47,819 nucleotides of DNA, taken from contig JADFJT010000006.1 of assembly GCA_022566015.1 (NCBI GenBank), positions 1-47,819 on the forward strand, given 5' to 3'. Below are positions 16,215 through 47,819 of the stretch, in pieces. The notes below the pieces were generated by a model that had not been told where the DNA came from, ran no database searches, and saw only the letters and a list, made by a program, of their open reading frames with translations. Positions within the stretch are counted from its first letter, which is position 1; every line of letters starts with the position of its first letter. The position numbers and the translations under genes were made by a program. Origin of the DNA: Pseudomonadota bacterium. GTDB lineage: Bacteria > Pseudomonadota > Gammaproteobacteria > GCA-001735895.

Positions 16215-16408
16215 TCTAGCCCGGACAATTCATGAATTACCGCGATGATTGCGCAGGACTTTGTTTTCTCGGAAGATTTTCCGAAGAAGTGTCGCTTCAG
16301 AGCGCCTACTTTTGGCGGACCAATGGATCCGGCCGACTGAGCAAAATCTCCTGAGGGAACAAAGGGCAAGCAAGGGCGCGAGTACATTTATGAAATGTTC
16401 GGGCTAGA
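16215..16408. mobile_element. MITE-like element, complete copy (194 bp)
   Basis: The left end reads TCTAGCCCGGACAATTCAT and the right end, on the opposite strand, reads TCTAGCCCGAACATTTCAT, so the element has imperfect terminal inverted repeats with two mismatches in 19. CTAG occurs exactly at both borders and may be a 4-bp target duplication. The interior has a hairpin TCGGAA-GATT-TTCCGA and no transposase. A second copy starts at 47692. The right-hand CTAG provides the TAG stop of the homocysteine-methyltransferase-like gene. A 66-residue minus-strand frame inside the element is not treated as a gene. Confidence 0.82.
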
Positions 16409-17321
16409 CCCCACAAAACTCCTGTCGCAGCGCAGCAATGTGCTCCGGACCTATACCACAGCATCCGCCAACCATACGCACACCGCTTTGAACCCAACCC
16501 TGTGCGGTACTGGCCAGTTCATCGGGTTCGATCACATCGACAAACTGCCAGTTGGGCCTGGCGAAATAGCCAGATTCGGGATAGACGCCTACCGGTCCGT
16601 TCCGATATTGCCTGACTACTTTTATCGCCTGTTCCACATCGGGCACTGGCGTGTGCATTATATTCATCATCATCGCCGGATATCCAGCCAGAGCTTTGAC
16701 AAGGCTTTCGAAGTCGAATGCTTCATAGTCAAATACCGACAGTGTGCTAGCGCCTTTGTTAATTTGGGCACATACGCCGATCCAGAGGGGCAAACCGACC
16801 TCTAATACTGCCTCGACTGCAGCGATTGAAAAATCTTCTGTCTGGCACATTTCCAGTGTAATCAGGTCAACGCCTGCTTCAGCCAGTATTTCCGCCTGTT
16901 CTTTTATAGAACGGCTTACGGCCTCTGGGGAATTCCACTCAGGGTCATCGTGCGACACCCATTCACATATCGAACCCGCAATGGCAACTGGCCCTGTTGC
17001 CACACTGTCTCGCGCCCGCTGTGCCAACTTGACCGCATTTTGATTGATATCATTTAGATATTTTCCCAGGCCGCCCGGCTCCAGCATATGCCGCGCACTG
17101 GAAAATGTGTTGGTGGTAATGACTTCTGCACCGGCGCTGATGTATGCTTCATGCGTTTCACGCACCGCTTCAGGGTGAGATAGCATTGCGCGGGCGCTCC
17201 AAACTATCTCATCCATCGGCACGCCAGATTTTTCCAGCTCGGTTCCCATGCCTCCATCGATGATGAGCGGTGGGCCGTCGCCGCGAATGCGATCTTCTAG
17301 CCAGGACAGGTCATCGGTCAT
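16404..17321 (-). CDS. Homocysteine S-methyltransferase family protein
   Basis: This 305-residue Pfam S-methyl_trans protein transfers a methyl group from a donor such as S-methylmethionine, a betaine or a methylated thiol to a thiol acceptor. The N-terminus has LIIDGGMGTELEKSG. The three zinc-binding cysteines are visible: one in WIGVCAQ and two in MVGGCCGIGPEHI. The usual C-terminus follows the GGCC motif closely, so the protein looks full length, but the last codon and the TAG stop lie at the MITE border (16404-16407 is CTAG). It diverges from the D-glutamate cyclase operon. The exact donor is not predictable; the nearby methylated-amine genes make a betaine-type donor possible. Confidence 0.85.
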   Translation of the reverse strand: MTDDLSWLEDRIRGDGPPLIIDGGMGTELEKSGVPMDEIVWSARAMLSHPEAVRETHEAYISAGAEVITTNTFSSARHMLEPGGLGKYLNDINQNAVKLAQRARDSVATGPVAIAGSICEWVSHDDPEWNSPEAVSRSIKEQAEILAEAGVDLITLEMCQTEDFSIAAVEAVLEVGLPLWIGVCAQINKGASTLSVFDYEAFDFESLVKALAGYPAMMMNIMHTPVPDVEQAIKVVRQYRNGPVGVYPESGYFARPNWQFVDVIEPDELASTAQGWVQSGVRMVGGCCGIGPEHIAALRQEFCGV

Positions 17322-46298: not shown

Positions 46299-47696
46299 GT
46301 GAGCCAGGCTGCTATTAAAAAAGAGCCCGTCGAAAACCGTGAAATAGCGCATAAGAAATATTTAAAACAGCGTTCTATCCTGGTGGTTGACGATGAGCAT
46401 GGCATCAGGAATTTTCTCATCAAAGGCCTATCGAAACACGTGGGCCTGGTCGAAGCAGCCGAGGATATAGACCGGGCTGAGGAATTGCGCCAAAGATGTC
46501 ATTTTGACCTGATCATTGCCGATATAAAACTACCGGGGAAATCTGGTGTGGAGTGGGTGCAGGAATTACGCGACGCTGGCCGCAATACCTCGGTGATCTT
46601 TATTACCGCGCACGGCCACCTGGATGTAGCGATCGATGCAATTCGTGCGGGCGCGGCCGATTTCCTAATAAAACCCTTTCGCATAGACCAGATATTAACC
46701 GCCGTTGATCGCTGTATTGAACGCCAGGAAATGAAAAGAGAAAATTTTGTTCTTCGGCGTCAGGTAGATAAAATTTACGATAGCTCCAGCATGATTGGCG
46801 AATGTCCGTTAATGCAGAGTCTCGATGAAGTGATCAGGCGGGTGGCTTCGACTCCTTCCACTATTTTAATTCAGGGGGAAACGGGTACTGGCAAGGAGTT
46901 AGCGGCCAGGAGCATTCATGAATTGAGTGGTCGCAACGGTAGTTTCGTCCCAGTGAACTGTGGCGCTATGGCCGCAGAGCTGTTGGAAAGCGAATTATTC
47001 GGCCATGTCAAGGGCGCTTTTACCAGTGCCCACCAGGGCCGCGAGGGTTTATTTAGTTACGCCAACGGAGGCACTCTGTTTCTGGATGAAATAAGTGAAA
47101 TGCCCACTTCGATGCAGGCTCATCTTCTCAGGGTACTGGAAGAAAAAACCATCCGCCCGGTGGGCTCGAATCAGGAAATACCAGTCGATGCCAGGATTAT
47201 TGCGGCAACTAACAGGAATCTTGAACAACTAGTACACGACGGAAAATTTAGAGAAGACCTCTTTTTCCGACTCAGCGTGTTAAACATTCAGATTCCCTCA
47301 TTACGTGAACGAATCGAAGATTTGAGATTACTATCGCATCATTTCATCGACACAATTTCTGCCAGCCTGGGTATAAAATCAGCCCGACTTAGCGAGACCG
47401 AATTAGCATTGTTATCTTCCCATCAATGGCCCGGAAATGTGCGTGAATTGAAAAATGTAATCGAACGCAGTCTTTTGCTAAATACCCCTGCGAGTGAATG
47501 TATTTCGGGCGTAGCAAATACTAATTTATCGACCAAGATACCCGACCAGGTCTACCTGTTGCAGGATATTGAAAAACAGCATATTCTCAAGATCCTGGAA
47601 ATGGAAAACGGTAACAAATCAGCCGCAGCAAGAATCCTCGGCGTATCACGCAAAACTCTGGAACGAAAAGTATTGGCCTGGGCTAAGGCGATCTAG
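46299..47696 (+). CDS. NtrC-family sigma-54-dependent response regulator
   Basis: The 465-residue activator has a receiver domain (phosphate acceptor Asp75 in LIIADIKLPGKSG), an AAA+ domain with Walker A GETGTGKELAAR and the sigma-54 contact GAFTSA, and a Fis-type helix-turn-helix (NKSAAARILGVSRKTLERKV). The start is GTG 46299 with AGGA upstream. No sensor kinase is in the window. The stop TAG lies in the CTAG of the MITE-like element, so the original C-terminus may have been the same (WAKAI). Confidence 0.93.
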   Translation: MSQAAIKKEPVENREIAHKKYLKQRSILVVDDEHGIRNFLIKGLSKHVGLVEAAEDIDRAEELRQRCHFDLIIADIKLPGKSGVEWVQELRDAGRNTSVIFITAHGHLDVAIDAIRAGAADFLIKPFRIDQILTAVDRCIERQEMKRENFVLRRQVDKIYDSSSMIGECPLMQSLDEVIRRVASTPSTILIQGETGTGKELAARSIHELSGRNGSFVPVNCGAMAAELLESELFGHVKGAFTSAHQGREGLFSYANGGTLFLDEISEMPTSMQAHLLRVLEEKTIRPVGSNQEIPVDARIIAATNRNLEQLVHDGKFREDLFFRLSVLNIQIPSLRERIEDLRLLSHHFIDTISASLGIKSARLSETELALLSSHQWPGNVRELKNVIERSLLLNTPASECISGVANTNLSTKIPDQVYLLQDIEKQHILKILEMENGNKSAAARILGVSRKTLERKVLAWAKAI

Positions 47697-47819
47697 CCCG
47701 GACAATCCATGAATTACCGCGATGATTTCGCAGGATTTTGTTTTCACAGGAATTTGCTCCTGCAATTTCTGCATACACGCCATCCGTGGCGATATCAGGA
47801 GATTTTCCGAAGAAGTGTC
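47692..47819 (+). mobile_element. MITE-like element, second copy, incomplete at window end
   Basis: The left end TCTAGCCCGGACAATCCAT matches the complete copy at 16215, followed by nearly identical sequence through GAATTACCGCGATGATT and a final match GATTTTCCGAAGAAGTGTC. The interval in between has about 49 extra bases, the two-hairpin repeat listed below. The right end is outside the window. Confidence 0.82.
47747..47799 (+). repeat. Two-hairpin REP-like insert inside the second MITE-like copy
   Basis: CAGGA (47747-47751) pairs with TCCTG (47758-47762); CTGCAT follows (47769-47774); CGCCA (47778-47782) pairs with TGGCG (47787-47791) around TCCG. The order and the CTGCAT linker match the insert in the IS110 gene read on its minus strand. 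The first MITE copy lacks it, so it inserted into this one; CAGGA stands at both borders and may be a target duplication. Confidence 0.72.

Follow-up and report, generated by a model that had tools for sequence, protein, structure and literature searches.

MITEPsy1 of Pseudomonas syringae, a small MITE thought to derive from ISPsy2, uses CTAG or YTAA as its insertion site and duplicates it (PMC3189936). A 4-bp YTAR duplication is also described for IS5 (PMC10359306), and in ISPsp10 (IS5/IS427), which duplicates TA, it is the transposase's own stop that the target provides (PMC4133298). For IS1380 members other than those described below, 5-bp duplications have been reported (IS1247; PMC3281130). 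The eukaryotic piggyBac elements duplicate the four bases TTAA, have TIRs that often start with CCC, and have been analyzed with IS1380 as the prokaryotic outgroup (PMC10813416).

The element described here is best explained as a YTAR-targeting, IS1380-type MITE whose surviving copies gather at the 3' ends of genes, where they do the least harm (probability about 0.8). On this best reading the element is largely ordinary, and a dedicated device for targeting stop codons is neither needed nor shown. The element, its duplication rule, one empty CTAG site and the density of insertion sites were observed directly.

The element, its copies and its target

The window (the whole stretch of 47,819 nucleotides analyzed, contig C96) contains two copies of a small non-autonomous element, the first at 16216-16407 including both CTAGs, the second starting at 47693 and cut off at the contig end at 47819 (Table 1). 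The end pattern occurs three times in the window, where chance would give 0.02 matches. The 184-bp core has no transposase gene; the element is short, bears terminal inverted repeats and occurs in ~19 copies in the genome, which upholds its description in a first-pass annotation as a MITE-like family. That annotation was also right that the TAG of a CTAG closes the neighboring gene: the right CTAG of copy 1 does so for the minus-strand methyltransferase gene, the left CTAG of copy 2 for the plus-strand regulator gene. An Rfam search with the element returned no match, nor did the plasmid and phage collections searched.

Table 1. Features of the two element copies and adjoining genes in the window
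Feature	Coordinates	Strand	Basis
Left target duplication CTAG	16216..16219	.	Sequence; matched 4-bp duplicates at other copies, including TTAG/TTAG
MITE core, 184 bp, imperfect inverted repeat over nearly its whole length (foldback)	16220..16403	.	~19 related genome sites; fold
Left terminal inverted repeat CCCGGACAATTCATGAAT	16220..16237	+	End pattern; ends common to 1680-bp IS1380 element
Right terminal inverted repeat CCCGAACATTTCATAAAT (minus-strand reading)	16386..16403	-	End pattern
Right CTAG	16404..16407	.	Supplies the methyltransferase gene's TAG stop (16404-16406, minus-strand reading)
Homocysteine S-methyltransferase gene (PF02574), ends in element border	16404..17321	-	Domain match; orthologues
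Left CTAG of second copy	47693..47696	.	Supplies the regulator gene's TAG stop (47694-47696)
Second MITE copy, long internal variant, incomplete at contig end	47697..47819	.	Sequence; genome copies
Sigma-54 (NtrC-type) response regulator gene, ends in element border	46299..47696	+	87%-identical G008 orthologue

The source genome is a 2.97-Mb MAG of 197 contigs. Several of its copies are cut by contig ends, and three forms occur among them: short, with an internal insert and with an internal deletion. Contigs ending in or beside a copy comprise the window (47693-47819), C9, C14, C85, C104, C160, C180 and C188; since the assembly breaks at the element, with many contig ends in or near copies, the copy number is probably underestimated. 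Ends of a second type, similar to CTAGCCCGNATATTGCATGAA, were seen at C1:13864, C47:10214, C91:10823, C91:12548 and C112:23594 and suggest that this genome has a further related MITE or IS1380 family.

Both window copies begin with TCTAG, as the earlier description had it, but this is an incomplete rule. Most copies carry CTAG on both flanks, C23 and C194 carry TTAG on both, a few have mixed YTAR, and CTAA borders also occur. Matched duplications among the 11 two-flank copies of the source genome were CTAG/CTAG in 7 and TTAG/TTAG in 2. Because TTAG/TTAG copies exist beside CTAG/CTAG ones, the border is a 4-bp duplication of a YTAR target. CTAG makes up 12.9% of YTAR sites (background taken from stretches of the genome totalling 446 kb) versus 7 of the 11 two-sided insertions (p = 1e-4). 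The claim that the element targets CTAG therefore stands as a strong preference for a sequence that is duplicated, while the full rule is YTAR. The GTDB scan provides no independent evidence for this motif, because its search pattern required YTAR. YTAR reads as YTAR on the opposite strand too, so TAR (TAG or TAA) is present on both; whichever side of the element a gene ending in Y-TAR lies on, its stop is retained, because the motif is self-complementary in pattern and is duplicated.

Probable affiliation with IS1380 and spread of related forms

IS1380 transposase (PF13701) loci in the genus show YTAR followed by ends of the CCCRA..CATAAA type, with YTAR beside the ends at L066, L069 and L070. 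Among 369 genomes of the class, one (G320, L431) yielded a 1680-bp element with a CTAG target duplication that encodes a 457-aa PF13701 protein; its TIRs (CCCGGATTATTCATGAAT/CCCGGACTATTCATGAAC) match the MITE at 16 of 18 positions at each end. CTAG duplications were also found at two more full IS1380 elements (L424 and L426). Since its ends are common to a full element encoding a PF13701 protein, the MITE is assigned by those ends to the IS1380 family. The full-length parent IS with the same ends that had been envisaged thus has a candidate in the same class, but none was found in the source genome, an absence that weighs little because the MAG is fragmented and MITEs are not defined by having a parent in their own genome. 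The PF13701 locus of the source genome (C70) has more distant ends, CCCAATCATTGCATAAAT and CCCGACAGTTGCATAAAT, and most of the many-copy hosts that were searched had no good PF13701 match. Pairs of ends 1.4-3.1 kb apart in GTDB loci were considered as full-length IS and rejected: they enclosed ordinary genes and no transposases. The G320 IS1380 (L431 1348-3065) sits exactly at the CTAG center of a longer inverted repeat, CTACCGCGCAGA..TCTGCGCGGTAG, directly downstream of another transposase-like gene; MITE copies generally show no such inverted-repeat preference.

MITEs with the same ends occur across Gamma-, Delta- and Zetaproteobacteria, Nitrospira and Methylomirabilota, among other groups; five MAGs (deltaproteobacterial or similar) have ~140-230 end matches each, corresponding to roughly a hundred copies. 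The commonest very short class consists of 34-bp palindromic ‘solo’ forms, spread over several genomes (n = 8: L034, L106, L111, L123, L144, L156, L166 and L096), of which L106 and L156 are one site in related genomes. Four of the eight are at stop codons, two of these being the same site in related genomes. The form at L034 (1488-1521; C177:14287-14320 of the source genome) reads CTAGCCCGGACATTTCATGAATTGTCCGGGCTAG, one half from each element end. As TTCATGAA equals its own reverse complement, it is present at the two ends of the element in direct as well as inverted orientation, and a deletion between these direct repeats would leave exactly 4+9+8+9+4 = 34 bp, as in C177; the 34-bp forms are probably deletions across this palindromic 8-mer in both ends. 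A longer arrangement was seen at L147 (4918-6876; G143:C1 ~1036918-1038876), where a pyridoxal-type gene (D-cysteine desulfhydrase/ACC deaminase-like by eye) lies between two MITE-type ends that are separated by 1959 bp and flanked by TTAG at either side, and the genes on both sides stop at the shared TTAG. The arrangement may be a non-autonomous element carrying cargo, located where convergent genes overlap at their stops.

Insertion sites and gene ends

Empty sites in relatives had been expected to read CTAG once, and this is so for one site: at C183, relative G008 has the flanks in register around a single CTAG (...aaaaaccCTAGgagtctgtcgaa...) that is already the stop of the same gene. At window copy 2, the 87%-identical G008 regulator has no element and has TAG at the same codon (GTAG); at C33, an element-free relative has TTAG at the same stop; and at C160 two element-free relatives have their stop, TGA or TAA, at the same codon. 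Window copy 1 is uninformative on the age of the stop, because orthologues of its methyltransferase (60-70% identity) end about two codons earlier. The copy on C104 (L013; C104:3265), first called a stop, truncates a gene (kbl-like by eye) that continues in G008; no other clear gene disruption was seen in the source genome.

Gene calls on these MAGs were home-made, from a codon model trained separately for each genome. Each YTAR site was assigned to one of five classes (stop, just downstream, upstream, far, genic); insertions were classed by their joined flanks. The source genome was pooled with G144, G143 and G149 by the Mantel-Haenszel (MH) method; many copies are one-sided at contig ends, and numbers per genome are modest. 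The source genome has 5 insertions at stops taken as native (6 with C104), 6 at sites 1-30 bp past a stop and 7 elsewhere in intergenic DNA; no insertion was called genic (the C104 copy, called a stop, truncates a gene) versus ~73% of YTAR sites. The fraction at stops was 5/19 in this genome, 22/81 in the GTDB set, and 6/34, 2/21 and 11/48 in the three further genomes. Few sites are within genes.

These counts bear on whether the transposase or a host partner steers insertion to stops or gene 3' ends beyond the YTAR requirement, which we regard as unlikely. In its favor, stops are 2.8-fold denser in insertions than all other intergenic YTAR sites (MH odds ratio 2.77, p = 1.2e-5, four genomes), although unannotated genes in the ‘far’ class lower the density there and inflate this value; for that reason we give most weight to the comparison of stops with adjacent downstream sites. 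Stops also exceed sites ≤100 bp upstream of genes (odds ratio 1.97, p = 0.011). In the GTDB set of 81 sites, stops account for 22 of 60 non-genic sites versus 12% expected (p = 1e-6), the other 21 sites being called genic by a length-based gene caller, as against 9 called so by the codon model. Furthermore, where ORFs of 200+ codons read into the element, they do so in the TAR frame at 27 flanks versus 2 and 4 in the other frames (source genome and GTDB). Selection, however, predicts the same frame bias, and sites 1-30 bp past stops are enriched too (MH odds ratio 2.34 versus the rest of the intergenic sites, p = 0.003, four genomes), with no significant difference between them and stops (MH odds ratio 1.35, p = 0.24, four genomes). 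Most copies lying away from stops had been named as an observation that would speak against a target-choice strategy, and ~77% of pooled sites do lie elsewhere, with ~23% at stops. Flanks showed no hairpin, palindrome or T-run preference relative to intergenic YTAR sites in the four genomes, and targeting of such features was rejected as the source of the 3'-end bias. The first-pass suggestion that the element often lands on TAG stops is thus correct as to the enrichment, but the excess reaches 1-30 bp beyond them, and the strategy itself is unproven, as the target motif and purifying selection account for most of the pattern. Some stop-specific preference may remain, given the denser stop class in the GTDB set (22/83 versus 9/79 for the 1-30 bp class; 26/79 versus 5/75 with the other gene caller). 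A bias to stops or gene 3' ends built into IS1380-type transposition seems improbable to us; if real, it would mean that elements spread by picking gene-sparing sites, beyond any later selection.

We favor a YTAR-targeting MITE sorted by selection. An IS1380-type transposase acting in trans would cut at YTAR, best at CTAG, and duplicate the 4 bp, and the duplication would preserve a gene's stop whichever side the gene lies. Selection would purge most genic insertions, and the survivors would be intergenic and densest at stops and in the next 30 bp, where both the protein and the downstream promoter are spared. We infer that selection is the cause of the 3'-end bias: insertions at the ends of genes would be tolerated, so that the target is often a stop signal, and stop codons suit the element because YTAR holds TAG/TAA on both strands and is duplicated.

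There is little likelihood that the hairpin is retained at gene ends as a terminator or mRNA 3' stabilizer of the preceding gene. The core foldback is very stable (-85.4 kcal/mol, z -6.8) and copies are in excess at gene 3' ends, but such folding is inherent in the inverted-repeat build, the stem is not followed by a U-run, copies also lie upstream of genes and far from genes, and the apparent covariation is due largely to the alignment of copies in opposite orientation. A conserved RNA structure was accordingly rejected, the apparent covariation being discounted because near-palindromic copies were aligned in both orientations. Least credible, and very improbable, is that CTAG belongs to the element's own end, in-frame insertion anywhere making a new stop and a shortened gene: the truncating C104 copy and the slightly displaced end of the copy 1 methyltransferase would fit, but TTAG/TTAG and CTAA borders mark the target as duplicated, stops older than the element are shown by the empty G008 CTAG site and by same-codon stops at three further sites, and ORFs of 200+ codons almost never enter it in other frames.

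Significance and comparison with known systems

A 4-bp target that is a stop on both strands and is duplicated offers a simple quantitative case of a motif lowering the cost of a transposon to its host. With roughly a hundred copies in some genomes, target choice and selection are separable by experiment, and repeats widespread in Gamma-, Delta- and Zetaproteobacteria and other phyla are now tied to the IS1380 family.

ISPsy2 is an IS5-type element, and an IS5-derived MITE of the MITEPsy1 type was considered and rejected: the YTAR target fits, but a MITEPsy1-type TIR is absent. The MITEPsy1 TIR (GGAAGGTCTGAAAAAGCC) is unrelated to CCCGGACAATTCATGAAT of our MITE, while CTAG targeting and duplication are common to both. 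IS5 has the same YTAR duplication, but searches that covered the end pattern and PF13701 transposases revealed no IS5 element with the ends of the MITE, and the full-length relatives found with those ends carry PF13701. ISPsp10 is a precedent for an insertion site that provides a border stop, although there the stop is that of the transposase and here that of a neighboring gene. The likeness to piggyBac, which is eukaryotic and uses TTAA where the MITE prefers CTAG, consists, by description, in a 4-bp duplication and CCC-type TIR starts. Unlike IS1380 family members (PF13701), the MITE has no transposase, and the IS1380 ends in its own genome have diverged; like them, it has ends of the form CCCGGA..TTCATGAA(T) beside a 4-bp YTAR/CTAG duplication.
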